From the NCBI RefSeq assembly GCF_000737535.1, contig NZ_CP006269.1:310001-374000 (forward strand): DNA of 64,000 bases, written 5' to 3'. Made by a program: the position numbers and the translations under genes. Below the pieces are notes generated by a model, which saw only the letters and a program-made list of their open reading frames with translations, was not told the DNA's origin and did no database searches. Shown in pieces: positions 7,515-15,518 of the stretch. This DNA comes from Synechococcus sp. KORDI-100. GTDB taxonomy: Bacteria > Cyanobacteriota > Cyanobacteriia > PCC-6307 > Cyanobiaceae. Positions within the stretch are counted from its first letter, which is position 1, and every line of letters starts with the position of its first letter.

Positions 7515-9232
7515 GTTTGGCTTTCATCGCTCCTCCACGGTTTTCGCTCTCTGTAGTGGTTGTGACTTACAACATGCGAAGGGAAGCCCCTCGCACGTTG
7601 TATACCCTTACCCCTTCTTATCAGGGTGTTTCCGGTGATCTGTTTGAAGTCATAGTTGTTGATAATGGATCACAATTTCCAGTTGGTCAGCATGCAGTGG
7701 AGAGTGTTGACTCAGGCTTTCGTTATGTCGAGCTTCCGCCCGGCAATCCATCTCCTGCAGCGGCCCTTAACCATGGTGTTGCTCTAAGTCGTGCACCTGC
7801 TGTCGCCCTCTTGATTGATGGCGCCCGCATGCTCTCTCCAGGGGTCATCCGCTATGCCCTGCAGGCTTTGCGGGTCCATGTTCGCCCGGTGATCAGTACG
7901 TTGGGGTGTCATCTCGGAGCGAAGCCCCAGCAGCAATCCGTGGCTGACGGGTATGACGCGGCGGCTGAAGATGCCTTGCTTGAGTCGGTGCCGTGGCAGC
8001 GCAACGGTTACCGCCTCTTCGACATTAGTTGTTTGGCTGAATCATCGAAGCATGGGGTGTTGTCTCCTTTGGTCGAGAGCAATGCGCTCGTGATGCCGCG
8101 CCAGCTCTTTGATGAACTCGGTGGTTTGGATGAGCGGTTTACGAGTCCAGGTGGTGGCCTGGTGAATTTGGATTTTTATCAGCGTGCGCTTGCGCTTCCC
8201 GATGTTCAGTTGGTGACGTTGCTTGGAGAGGCAAGCTTTCACCAGGTTCATGGAGGAGTGTCTACGGGAACGGAGAACCGCTGGCGTGAGATGTGTGACG
8301 AGTATCAGCGCATTCGCGGGATGGTTTTTGATCCTTATCCGAGGCCATGGCCGCGCAGCGACTATCTCGGACAACTATCTCGATCTTATTTGCCATGGCT
8401 GAAAAGGGCGTTGGTTCTAAGGCGTCGCTTCTATGCCGGTTTCGAGGGAAATCCTCACGTGGGTGAACATGCCCCCTCAAGAAAAAGCTTCGATCAAGCC
8501 ACACGCACAGTTGTGGTGCTTGGAATGCATCGCAGTGGTACAAGTCTTCTTACAGGGACTCTTCAGGAAGCAGGTTTAAATCTTGGGAATGTTGTACATG
8601 CTGCGCCTCACAATCGTAAGGGAAACCGAGAGTCGATTGCAATCAGAACCTTGCACGAAGACCTCTTGCAGCGTTCTGGGGGCAGTTGGCATCAGCCACC
8701 AGATTCAGTGGAGTGGTCACCAGTGCATCAAGCCATGAGAGATTTAATTATCGCTCAGTTTCAAGGGCAGTCAGTTTGGGGATTCAAGGACCCTCGAACA
8801 GTCTTCTGTTTTGAGGGTTGGCTTGAGGTGTTGCCACAGATTCAAGTGGTAGCGATTGTGCGACATCCCGAATCGGTTGCGCGTTCGTTGCAAGCTCGGG
8901 ATGGTTTTTCTCTTGATCAGGGATTCGATCTCTGGTTGCGTTACAACCTTCGCTTGAAATTTTGGTTGGAACAGTTGCCGGTACCACTTCTATACTTTGA
9001 CGAAAATCTTTCCACTTTCCGGGTTCACGCTGCAAGCTTGATTGAACACTTGAAGTTGCCAAGACAATTAAGTGCTGATGATTTGAAATTTGGTGAAGCT
9101 TCTTTACAGCATCAGGCCCCTCGAGGCCTGACTCTTCCAACTGCTGTACGGGATCTCTTCGAAGCCTTGTGTGCTCGTTCCGTCAGCTCTTTTCCGACTC
9201 CCCTAAAAATTCCAAAATCTCCCGATCTTTGA
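7511..9232 (+). CDS. Two-domain glycosyltransferase family 2 / sulfotransferase fusion protein
   Basis: A 573-aa protein with two enzyme-like halves. Residues 12-250 look like a GT2 GT-A fold: [17 protein letters not shown], then [11 protein letters not shown], then [14 protein letters not shown] where a DXD is expected, then [13 protein letters not shown]. The DXD position reads IDGA, so the second aspartate is missing. From about residue 330 a P-loop sulfotransferase domain begins: [18 protein letters not shown], then [12 protein letters not shown], then [15 protein letters not shown] near 445. The only plausible start is a TTG at 7511. The 3' end overlaps convergent cysE by 50 bp. It probably transfers a sugar and a sulfate in building a surface glycan; the coupling is inferred from the fusion. 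Confidence 0.75.
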
Positions 9233-9932
9233 GGCTTTGTGCCTCACCACTGAAGAGTTCCCGTGAATTATTCCCTTCTAGAGTCGTAATTAATAAACGT
9301 TGAAGATTTTCAACAGAATTTTCTAGCTCGTCAATTCGTTCCATCAGATTGCGGATCACATTCGCTTCCGCATCCGGCAGGGCTGAGTGGGCTAGGGGAT
9401 TGATGCGCACACCGCTCTGGTGGATCACACGACCGGGGATGCCGACAACGGTGCAGTCTGCCTCCACATCCCTCACGACAACGGAGCCAGCCCCGATTCG
9501 GGTGTTGGCGCCGACTGTGATGGCACCCAGCACCTTGGCGCCTGCACCCACCACGACGTTTTGCGCCAGGGTTGGATGCCGTTTGCCTGATTCTTTGCCG
9601 GTGCCGCCCAGGGTGACCCCCTGATACAGGAGGCAGCGGTGGCCGATCTCTGCGGTTTCGCCGATCACCACGCCCATGCCGTGGTCGATGAAGACGCCGT
9701 TTCCGATCCTGGCGCCTGGATGAATTTCAATGCCGGTGATGCCACGTCCCAGCTGGCTGAGGCATCGGGCGACGAGCTTCAAGGGCAGTTTCCGTCTCCA
9801 CAGCCAGTGACTCAGCCGATGCAGGCTGATGGCATGAAAGCCGGGGTAGCAGAACAGGATCTCGAGCCAGCCGCGAGCGGCCGGATCACGCTCGCGAATG
9901 ATCGCCAGATCGGCGCGAATGTGATCGAGCAT
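9183..9932 (-). CDS. cysE: Serine O-acetyltransferase
   Basis: CysE makes O-acetylserine from serine and acetyl-CoA, the carbon skeleton for cysteine. The 249-aa product has an N-terminal helical part ([15 protein letters not shown]). A left-handed beta-helix of hexapeptide repeats follows at about residues 70-175, including [21 protein letters not shown] and [16 protein letters not shown], which carry the catalytic Asp-His region. A C-terminal extension ([20 protein letters not shown]) looks like a short coiled coil. It lies 10 bp after the GntR-type regulator gene on the same strand, so both may be one transcript. Sulfur supply sits well beside sulfotransferase genes, but that link is only contextual. 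Confidence 0.95.
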
Positions 9933-9942
9933 TGCTTGGGCG

Positions 9943-10941
9943 TCAGCTGGCGGCTGGGGTCTGCAAACCGATCTCCTTGCGGAGCTGCTCGATCGTATCG
10001 ACGCTCAGGTAACTCTCGGCGCAGTGCACCTGGGGCATGCGCATCAGTTGTGAGCGGTTCTGGCGCAGGCTCTGTTCCACCAACGGCAGGCTGGGGCGAT
10101 CGCAGAGCACATGGCTAGAAGCGCGCAGCAAGGCCAGCAGCCGGCTCCCCACATCCGGTGTGGCGGTCATCAGCAGGAGCTCATTGCCGCGCATGGAGTG
10201 CAGGATCACTTCAGCGGCCCTCAGAATCCCTGGGCTGATGCTCACCAGGCCCACGCAACTGCCAGGCCGCAGCTCCTTGAGCATGGCGAGTTCCTGACGG
10301 AAATCATTGAGATCCACGGCCACAGCACGCACGCCGTGGGCCTTGGCGAGCTCTTCGACAGGCTGAAGGAAATAACGGCTGGTCACGACAGTCCCGTTGC
10401 TGGAGCTTTCTAGGACGCTCTCCAGCTCTTCCATCGGGACGACTTCGACAGGCACGTCCAGACAGGGCACTAGCTCCTCTGCAATCAGCATGGAGGCTCC
10501 GATGTCTTCACGCGGAGTGCTCACCAGCACTCGTGCGCCGCAGCGGAGTCGCCAGTCGATCTCACGGGTGAGCATTTCGCGGGTCTGTTGCAGAGTGCAG
10601 CCCGCATTGAGCAGCCCATCAACACATTTGCGCACTTCCCGATCGAGATCGGTGACGCCGCGGTTGCGGATGTGGGGCGGAGTCCGGATTTCGCGGGGCT
10701 TCTGCTGATCGCGCACATAAATGCCTGAGCCGGCCATCGCTTCCACGACGCCATCCGTCTCGAGCTGCCTGTAGACCTTGCTGATCGTGTTGCGATGCAG
10801 GCCGGTCTGCATCGCCAGCTGACGGGTGCTGGGCAATCGGTGCCCAGGGGGATAGTGCCGCGCTGCAATTGCGAAGCAGATCTGGTTGTAAAGCTGGGTC
10901 GACGCCGGAATGTCGCTTTCCTGCTGGATGTGGAATCGCAC
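9943..10941 (-). CDS. GntR-family transcriptional regulator
   Basis: The N-terminal 75 residues form a GntR winged helix-turn-helix: [20 protein letters not shown], then [30 protein letters not shown], then MAGSGIYV. The remaining 250 residues are an effector or oligomerisation domain. It is not an aminotransferase (MocR) domain, because there is no PLP lysine motif and the length is too short. It contains alternating beta/alpha segments such as [22 protein letters not shown] and [21 protein letters not shown], which suggests a sensor fold. Ligand and targets are unknown. It precedes cysE by 10 bp and diverges from the hydrolase gene across 49 bp, so either could be a target. Confidence 0.85.
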
Positions 10942-10990
10942 GCCGGTAGGCCGGGTTGGAATGCGGCCACCCTAAGGACCGAATCGCCTG

Positions 10991-11791
10991 GTGACAATTG
11001 CTTCGGTGTCCTGTGAACTTGTGACAATCTCCAACTCCCTTGCCGGCCACTGGGTTGAGGTGCCGGGTCGTGATGTGCCACTGCGCAGCTGGTGGGCGGA
11101 TGCTGACCAAAAAAAGCACGATATTGAATCAATAACGGTTCAGAACCGTGTCGTTATCGTGCTTCCCGAGGTTTTCGGCATCAATCGCTGGGTGCGAAGT
11201 GTCGCTGGGCGCATCGCTTCCTCGGGCGTGCCGGCGTTGGCGATGCCGTTGTTCGCCCGCACGGCTCCGAGCCTCGATCTCGGGTACAGCGATTCTGATC
11301 TGATCGAGGGACGCCGGCACAAGGACGCCACGACCACCGATCAGATCCGTGCCGATGTCAGTGCGTCGATCGCCTGGCTGCTCATTCGCTACCCGGAGGC
11401 TGTTGTCACGGTTGTTGGCTTCTGCTTTGGAGGCCATGCCGCGTTGTTGGCTGCCACCGATCCAAATGTGCACTCCAGCTTCAACTTTTATGGGGCCGGT
11501 GTCAGCCGGATGCGGCCGGGAGGCGGGTCGCCTTCATTGGACCTGCTGCCGAAGGTCAAGGGTCAATTGACCTGTTTGTGCGGAACGGCAGACCCCTTGA
11601 TCCCAGCTGACCATCGCTCTGAGATCCAGACAGCGTTGCGAGCTGAGGATCCAAGCGGCTCGAGGCTGGCTTACGTCGAAGTTGCAGGAGCCGATCACGG
11701 CTTCATGTGCGAAGCCCGCAGCAGCTTTGACGCCCAGGCCTCACAACTCGGCTGGTCCCTTCTGTGGAGGGACCTCCAGACGCGTGCCTAG
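10991..11791 (+). CDS. Dienelactone hydrolase family protein (alpha/beta hydrolase)
   Basis: A 266-aa alpha/beta hydrolase of the dienelactone hydrolase family. Family marks are VLPEVFGIN (the glutamate that holds the nucleophile), [11 protein letters not shown] with Cys145 as nucleophile, [11 protein letters not shown] with the acid, and ADHGFMC with the catalytic histidine. The substrate is unknown; most bacterial members do not act on dienelactone. A GTG at 10991 starts the frame. The segment around residues 38-58, between the WWAD strand and [10 protein letters not shown], is encoded by an unusual nested palindrome (11108-11164, listed separately). The last 4 bp overlap the end of convergent infC. 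Function is confident at family level only. Confidence 0.85.
11108..11164 (-). terminator. Nested inverted repeat with minus-strand T tract inside the hydrolase coding region
   Basis: AAGCACGATA at 11114-11123 and TATCGTGCTT at 11155-11164 are a perfect 10-bp inverted repeat. Inside lie two more perfect palindromes, ATTGA-A-TCAAT (11123-11133) and ACGGTTC-A-GAACCGT (11135-11149), so a three-way-junction fold is possible. Seven A residues (11109-11115) flank the left arm, so on the minus strand the stem is followed by a T run, as in an intrinsic terminator. It could stop transcripts from miaA-infC before the gntR-cysE unit. It is in frame and encodes about residues 40-58 of the hydrolase. Confidence 0.5.
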
Positions 11792-12441
11792 CCCTGTTTC
11801 GTCGCCACTTTGGCGGCCGTCGGTCGTGGCGGAGCAGGAATGGTGCGAACAGCCTTGGCTGCTGCGGTTTCTTTTTCCTCTTTCTTCACCAGAGGTGTTT
11901 TGCGAGGCGTCAGAAACATGATCATGTTTCTGCCCTCACGCTTCGGAGCCTGCTGAATTTCGGCTTTTTCTTCGAGATCCTTAGCCATCCGCCTCAGCAA
12001 TGTTTCTGCCAGGGCGGTGTGCTGAATTTCGCGGCCCCGGAAAATCACGGTGCACTTCACCTTGTCCCCGGCCTTGAGGAAACGTTCGGCCTGGCCGATG
12101 CGAACGTCGTAGTCGTGTTGATCAATCTTGTATCGCATCTTCACTTCCTTGACTTCGGTCTGGTGCGACTTTTTCTTGGCTTCCTTGGCCTTTTTCTCCT
12201 GCTCGAACTTGTACTTGCCGTAATCCATGATCCGGCAGACCGGTGGGTCGGCCTTTTCACTTACCAGCACCAGATCCAGTTCACGCTCCTTGGAGACGTC
12301 CAGCGCTTCTTCGCGACTAATCACCCCGAGCTGAGTGCCGTCTGAATCAACGACCCGCAGCTGTGGGTAATTGATGCGCTCATTGATGTTGGGTAACTCC
12401 CGAACAGGAGCACGACGGTCAAAGCGGGGACGTGGAGCCAT
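11788..12441 (-). CDS. infC: Translation initiation factor IF-3
   Basis: IF-3 binds the 30S subunit and checks the initiator tRNA and start codon. The frame is open to 12495, but the family begins near [16 protein letters not shown], so I place the start at ATG 12441 (217 aa). The N-domain has [17 protein letters not shown] and [17 protein letters not shown]; the C-domain has [17 protein letters not shown] and [13 protein letters not shown] lysine- and alanine-rich tail of roughly 40 residues follows the core, as in cyanobacterial IF-3. It is downstream of miaA on the same strand with 57 bp between stop and start, so the two are probably cotranscribed. The stop overlaps the convergent hydrolase gene by 4 bp. 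Confidence 0.97.
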
Positions 12442-12498
12442 GCAGATCTTGTTTGGGACGGGCGTGGTTGTCTGCTTCAACTCACAGATCCACATCCT

Positions 12499-13395
12499 TC
12501 ACCTTAGTTGTCGCTCGATCAGTGTCATCGCTTCTTTCAGAAGGTCTTCTCCAGCAAGCCAGCTGGGGTTGTGCTGGCGGCGAAACCAGGTGCGTTGGCG
12601 TTTGGCGAACTGCCGCGTGCGCTGGCTGGTGATTTCGATGGCATGCTCCCTGCTGATGGATCCTGCAAGGGCTTCCAGCGCCTCTCGGTAGCCGATCGTC
12701 TGCAACAGAGGCAGCCCCGTTCCATAGCGATCGGCAAGTGTTTGGGTTTCTTTGATCAACCCAGTGTCATAAAGCTGCTGGGTTCGTTGCTGGATGCGTT
12801 GTCGCAGATTGCTGGGATCAAGGCCGAGTTCAACCACGTTCCATGGAGGAGGACGCATGGAGGTCTGTTTGCTCATGGGTTGGCCAGTGGCGTAAATCAC
12901 TTCCAGAGCCCGTTGGGTCCGTACGGCGTCGGCGGGAGCGATCTTTGCAGCGGCCACTGGGTCAGCTGCGTTCAGCAGCGGATGGCACACCATTTGGCCA
13001 ATGTCAGAGAGCTGTTGTCTGAGCTGGGGTTGGGGCGGTACGGCTGGCGGCTTCAGTCCAGCTGTGATCGCTTTGAGGTAAAGACCGCTTCCTCCAACCA
13101 ACAAGGCGATTCCCTGGTGTCTGAGTTGCTCGTTGATGCTGACTTCGGCTTCGCGTTGGAATTCCTGCAGGGTGATGGGCTGATCCGGTCGTCGCAGATC
13201 CAAAAGGTGGTGGGTGACCCTCGCGCGCTGGCTCGCCGTGGGCTTGGCCGTCCCTACGGTCATGCCTGTGTACAGCTGCCTGGAATCCACGTTGTGAATG
13301 GGGATCCCCAGACGCGTGGCGATGTCGATAGACAGAGCTGTCTTTCCGCTGGCTGTGGGCCCCAGAAGCACGATCACCAGTGGTTGGTCAGGCAT
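12499..13395 (-). CDS. miaA: tRNA dimethylallyltransferase
   Basis: MiaA adds a dimethylallyl group to N6 of A37 in tRNAs that read codons starting with U. The 298-aa product opens with [20 protein letters not shown], the P-loop that binds dimethylallyl pyrophosphate. It continues with [20 protein letters not shown] (catalytic Asp and Arg region), [30 protein letters not shown], and [13 protein letters not shown]. The C-terminal QTIGYREAL and [14 protein letters not shown] are the tRNA-binding end. Length is normal for the family. It is transcribed away from gyrB, with about 155 bp between the two starts. Confidence 0.97.
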
Positions 13396-13551
13396 CAGGG
13401 ATGGTTAGGGGTTGCACCCCTGACTGAAACGGCATCGCAGAGGCCTCTGTGAGCCTCCACGGGACGCCGGTGGTAATCTAAGCCTGCCTGGTCGAGGTAT
13501 CGAGGCATTGAGGCTTCATAGAACCCTGTCTCCTGGATCAAGAGCTTCTGA

Positions 13552-15518
<1,967 letters not shown>

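Follow-up and report, generated by a model that had tools for sequence, protein, structure and literature searches.

A strain-specific palindrome and T-run inside a hydrolase gene of Synechococcus sp. KORDI-100 as a probable by-product of coding

The stretch of DNA analysed here, called the window below, covers 64,000 nucleotides of the 2.79 Mb genome of Synechococcus sp. KORDI-100, a member of the Synechococcus/Prochlorococcus group. On its plus strand it carries a gene of the dienelactone hydrolase family (PF01738; Pfam match of 94.3 bits, with a curated cut-off of 21), which spans positions 11021–11791 if, as is probable, it starts at GTG 11021 and not at GTG 10991. The gene is flanked by minus-strand miaA-infC and gntR-cysE, with infC (11788–12495) overlapping its 3' end by 4 bp and the GntR-family regulator located at 9943–10941. 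For comparison we used 13 intact homologues, namely this strain (G000) and 12 others of the genus, none of the same species. At all 13 of these loci the hydrolase has gntR and cysE as neighbours, and at 12 of them it also has infC, the exception being G022 (L012). The same gene order is also found in the Cyanobium-like loci L140 and L141, and at the Prochlorococcus hydrolase loci no match to the gntR, cysE or infC neighbours was found within the flanks examined, which are short for some of them. Across the genus loci, the intact hydrolases are 62–69% identical, miaA 70–83% and infC 85–96% (the latter two over the parts covered), while the GntR regulator is 93–99% identical in the 20 other loci of the same genus. 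Being more conserved than the hydrolase, miaA or infC, the regulator is, by these identities, under strong constraint.

Within the hydrolase gene, positions 11114–11123 (AAGCACGATA) and 11155–11164 (TATCGTGCTT) are the two arms of a perfect inverted repeat, 10 bp each and separated by 31 nt, as can be read directly in the sequence. On the plus strand the two arms are the codons K-H-D-I and V-I-V-L, respectively. As the first-pass annotation of this DNA had pointed out, the repeat encloses two further perfect palindromes, ATTGAATCAAT at 11123–11133 with 5-bp arms and ACGGTTCAGAACCGT at 11135–11149 with 7-bp arms, and it is flanked by seven A residues (11109–11115), which become T7 on the minus strand. 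Read on that strand, the feature (11109–11164) is shaped like an intrinsic terminator, that is, a 10-bp stem, a 31-nt loop holding a second hairpin, and then T7. The outer stem has four G-C pairs out of ten, and its upper part is A/T-rich.

The same annotation had also proposed a three-way junction. This was rejected, because it is absent from the predicted minimum-energy fold of 11108–11164, which consists of the outer stem and one inner hairpin; the latter is a 6-bp hairpin at 11135–11149, and the palindrome at 11123–11133 forms no hairpin of its own. The calculated fold energy is −18.7 kcal mol−1 for the plus strand and −15.9 kcal mol−1 for the minus strand, with z values of −4.5 and −4.0, respectively. 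When segments of like G+C content in the 64 kb are considered (n=611), 0.65% (plus) and 0.49% (minus) fold as well as this one, and when all segments are considered (n=10,658, step 6), the fractions are 27% and 40%.

The A7 tract is at the same time part of the heptamer A-AAA-AAG in zero-frame phase, which we take to be a known slippery site, and with the hairpin behind it the arrangement could be read as a −1 ribosomal frameshift site. We find this extremely unlikely. In the shifted frame only three codons (ARY) precede a stop, which still lies inside the loop, and no useful product would result, for which reason this option was rejected. In addition, there is no spacer between the heptamer and the stem, and the A7 tract is missing in all 12 other intact homologues.

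It is worth considering how unusual such a hairpin is. A perfect stem of at least 8 bp with a loop of 3–40 nt, followed by T6 or more, occurs at a single place on either strand of the 64 kb, which is 11108–11164. Perfect inverted repeats of at least 10 bp with a gap of 3–40 nt give 15 nested reports there, at 12 places, compared to a shuffle mean of 3.35 reports. In a larger set of 454 kb, made up of the window and further stretches of the same genome, four stems of at least 10 bp with at least T6 were found, 11109–11164 included, compared to none in 25 shuffles. The other three are terminator-like, with short loops of ca 4–12 nt; two of them are on the 3' side of genes and the third is antisense within one, these labels being rough since genes were called as the longest non-overlapping ORFs. 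A standard scan for short-loop terminators (loop 3–8) over positions 9000–14000 gave two sites, below the mean of 4.8 for shuffled sequences, and at 11108–11164 it picked the inner hairpin only and left the outer one unreported. Among known RNA families, the sole match in the same region is at 10391–10625, with 17.1 bits compared to a gathering score of 70, and there is none at 11108–11164.

Two other repeats can be mentioned here. At 11297–11347 the hydrolase gene has a second perfect 10-bp inverted repeat, also with a 31-nt spacer, over the SDL...DQI codons. Elsewhere in the genome, the pattern ACGATA-N28..34-TATCGT is found at only one other place (L170, G000:C1:282121-282160), where a rough count would lead one to expect about one.

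At the protein level, 11108–11164 codes for residues 40–58 of the hydrolase. In the structure model (mean pLDDT of 81.8, alignment of 13 rows) these form a loop followed by the core strand 53–58, of which the V-I-V-L codons of the 3' arm are a part, and the earlier description of the segment as an in-frame loop just before the VLPEVFG strand is thus borne out. Residues 44–49, between strands 31–36 and 53–58, have pLDDT values below 50. The hydrolase has matches in 23 of 34 genomes of the genus, with an intact full-length gene in 13, and in all of these 13 the loop has the same length and the alignment is gapless through the region. Over a wider set of 121 loci, which includes duplicates of single genomes, the distance from the WW to the LPE motif is 13 residues in 78 loci, 22 in 27, and 15, 16, 20, 28 or 32 in 14, with two loci unmeasurable. 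The lengths found outside the genus (13, 15, 16, 20, 28 and 32) argue for repeated small indels, and by this comparison the WW-LPE region is a variable loop and not one single insertion. In some relatives (e.g. G030, L008), TCGT recurs at 11-bp steps in the loop region 11129–11164, which follows in part from conserved R and I-V codons.

The loop of 22 residues in the genus, compared to 13 in the 78 loci, which are mostly from Prochlorococcus, would be in line with the idea put forward in the first-pass annotation that a small mobile palindromic element has been domesticated here as a protein loop. We give this practically no credence. The 51-bp element was not found at other loci, neither in this genome nor in 33 other genomes of the genus, some of them incomplete; outside the hydrolase gene the lowest E value is 0.004, and the best matches there cover about 20 bases. 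Empty sites were not found among the 13 intact genes of the genus either, and shorter loops, of several lengths, are seen only outside it. Within the genomes searched, the mobile element was rejected on account of the single copy, the constant loop length in the genus and the varied lengths outside.

We now come to the conservation of the hairpin. An antisense hairpin with a T-run of T5 or more is found in the gene in only one of the 13 intact homologues, i.e. in this strain alone; in the closest homologue, G005, the A tract is no longer than A4 and the arm is 6 bp. An equally good fold is reached by 6 of 400 synonymous recodings of the KORDI-100 segment on the plus strand and by 14 of 400 on the minus strand. 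The one other homologue with such low counts is G024 (5/400 and 29/400). For the remaining 11 the count is at least 57/400 on each strand, and their segments fold no better than recoded ones. Structure counts were made for 18 of the 21 genus loci, with L016, L020 and L023 left out. In these aligned loci the outer stem is paired in 75.0% of the cells, the shuffled mean being 75.1, and no excess covariation was found in it (score of 0.103 vs 0.104 shuffled). A conserved RNA structure was consequently rejected. When the outer stem is slid by 1–3 columns it pairs in 24–48% of the cells, as compared to 75% in the true register, but part of this excess is unsurprising, given that one of the aligned sequences supplied the structure.

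It is also important to examine the codons themselves. Over all 13 homologues, codons 47–57 have the top synonymous conservation of the gene body (2.15 in an 11-codon window; mean 1.45, SD 0.20). In an eight-member subclade the value is 2.19–2.21 (mean 1.65, SD 0.24), which is matched by a peak close to codon 242, and codons 47–57 lose the first rank to other positions when the window is set to 7 or 15 codons. A mild codon-level constraint in the living genes remains at these codons. The peak could point to a conserved DNA control element of gntR, made up of inverted ACGATAT and TCGT repeats, inside the hydrolase gene. In line with this, 11 of the 21 genus loci have the 6-bp core ACGATA...TATCGT at a common position, and gntR itself is very conserved. 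Outside the genus, however, the core was found within 300 bp in none of 13 hydrolase-gntR loci and in none of 29 gntR loci, the two sets sharing some species.

Degraded gene copies help to separate coding by-products from real constraint at the DNA level. Seven loci of the genus (L016, L017, L018, L019, L020, L022 and L023), two of which come from incomplete assemblies, have a hydrolase gene that is broken or carries an internal deletion. In all seven, gntR matches over nearly its full length, and infC adjoins in six, the exception being L019. For the pairs G003-G001, G003-G013, G001-G013 and G004-G027 of degraded copies, the identities over codons 43–58 are 29/48, 29/48, 34/48 and 35/48, respectively, and over codons 17–42 they are 67/78, 57/78, 54/78 and 51/77. 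Over codons 1–16 the first three pairs all have 43/47 and the last one 46/48. Compared with the functional genes, the seven degraded copies have mean identities of 0.56–0.69 over codons 43–58 and 0.45–0.63 over codons 17–42, and between functional genes the corresponding means are 0.68 and 0.56. The stretch drifts in the degraded copies like its surroundings, which makes a DNA function independent of the hydrolase unlikely. Since it decays there while the block beside gntR stays, and since the core is absent outside the genus, a conserved gntR operator at 11108–11164 was rejected, and we judge a control element of this kind to be very unlikely.

The test with degraded copies also points to this conserved block upstream of gntR and to the doubtful start codon of the hydrolase. 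The block (10990–11038, minus strand) contains GTGACAAT, GTGTCC and a second TGTGACA, and codons 1–7, which belong to it, have the strongest synonymous conservation, with a value of 2.81. At no more than 100 bp from gntR, GTGACAAT is present in all 21 genus loci and in all 13 other hydrolase-adjacent loci, so that all 34 keep it upstream of gntR, those with degraded hydrolase copies included. It is also found in 11 of 18 gntR loci with no adjoining hydrolase, and each of the seven misses is a one-base variant. The second TGTGACA is present in 17 of the 21 genus loci, in none of the 13 other hydrolase-adjacent loci and in 5 of the 18 gntR loci without the hydrolase. The two-part pattern of the block occurs once in the genome. 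We infer that the block is probably promoter or operator (auto-regulatory) DNA of the divergent gntR gene. The first start codon of the hydrolase, GTG 10991, falls inside it. Codon 11 (11021) is ATG in 3 and GTG in 10 of the 13 intact homologues, and residues 1–17 of the model have pLDDT values below 50; from these two observations the true start is probably GTG 11021. The regulator, in turn, is probably PMM1637, a regulator of the PlmA kind common to all cyanobacteria, which is a candidate assignment. A motif named CGRE1 has been described for PMM1637. In the accessible part of PMC6778093, PMM1637 is described as a GntR regulator common to all cyanobacteria, and in that of PMC5083789 PlmA is the studied regulator of this kind. 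A literature search joining dienelactone hydrolase, Synechococcus and plmA found no publication.

We turn finally to transcription of the minus strand. The hairpin had been proposed to be the terminator of infC, and although the terminator form is indeed there, a conserved terminator is not supported, as it is present in none of the 12 other intact homologues and there is no excess covariation. What could be considered instead is a recent, strain-specific intrinsic terminator, which would halt read-through from infC before the promoter region of gntR-cysE. The T7 tract comes right after the 10-bp stem, thus giving at least four U in the eight positions directly after it, the hairpin just upstream has a stable predicted fold (−15.9 kcal mol−1), and a stem with such a T-run is hardly to be expected by chance, as it is the only one in the 64 kb and none arose in the shuffles of the 454 kb. 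Furthermore, the overlap of infC with the hydrolase leaves no intergenic room for a terminator, and in the accessible part of a study of S. elongatus (PMC13289151), more consecutive U at the ends goes with less read-through. On the other hand, only one of the 13 homologues has the hairpin and T-run, and 11 of the 12 lacking it have infC beside the hydrolase, which means that infC needs no such terminator there. The stem with four G-C pairs out of ten and the 31-nt loop depart from the short loop and G+C-rich stem of intrinsic terminators, the hairpin lies 624 nt beyond the infC stop, and canonical ends in S. elongatus account for only 22% of the units in the accessible part of PMC13289151. On balance, we consider a terminator of this recent kind doubtful. 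That selection has recoded the disordered loop so that it works as an antisense terminator, insulating the highly conserved gntR and cysE from infC read-through, seems to us improbable. If true, one DNA segment would serve as a protein loop on one strand and as a terminator on the other, and there would be selected insulation in a phylum that has no Rho (PMC13289151, accessible part) and in which termination is mostly unexplained. A working terminator here would also offer a possible answer to how convergent units are terminated in cyanobacteria. As a minor possibility at the level of this strain, some antisense termination may occur.

The probable reading, in our view, is that 11108–11164 is ordinary coding DNA and that the hairpin has no function common to the relatives examined. 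The sequence, its position in the loop and its lack of conservation are direct observations. The stretch encodes the tip of a variable, poorly ordered β-hairpin loop and the next core strand of the hydrolase, and substitutions in the A/T-rich loop codons (K-K-H-D-I vs V-I-V-L) would have aligned two complementary 10-mers and an A7 run, presumably by drift in this strain. RNA polymerase arriving antisense from infC might then stop at the hairpin part of the time, as a by-product. Counted against the by-product reading are the synonymous peak at codons 47–57, the 6-bp core in 11 of 21 loci, the pairing in the true register and the absence of such stems with T-runs from the shuffled sequences. 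The case calls for caution, since even a conspicuous palindrome together with a T-run within a coding sequence can be specific to one strain.

It is instructive to compare the stretch with known systems. REP/MITE-like elements are short and palindromic. Compared by description, the stretch is alike in both respects, but it is single-copy as far as searched, and an empty site was not found within the genus. With the intrinsic terminators of S. elongatus, as presented in the accessible part of PMC13289151, the KORDI-100 hairpin shares a stable predicted fold and, on the minus strand, a stem that leads directly into seven U. It differs from them in its 31-nt loop and A/T-rich upper stem, in its location antisense in a gene and 624 nt past infC, and in its absence from the 12 other intact homologues of the genus. 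With the PF01738 family, finally, the gene shares Pfam membership, the stretch coding for a loop and a core strand, while the KORDI-100 loop exceeds in length that of most Prochlorococcus relatives compared.
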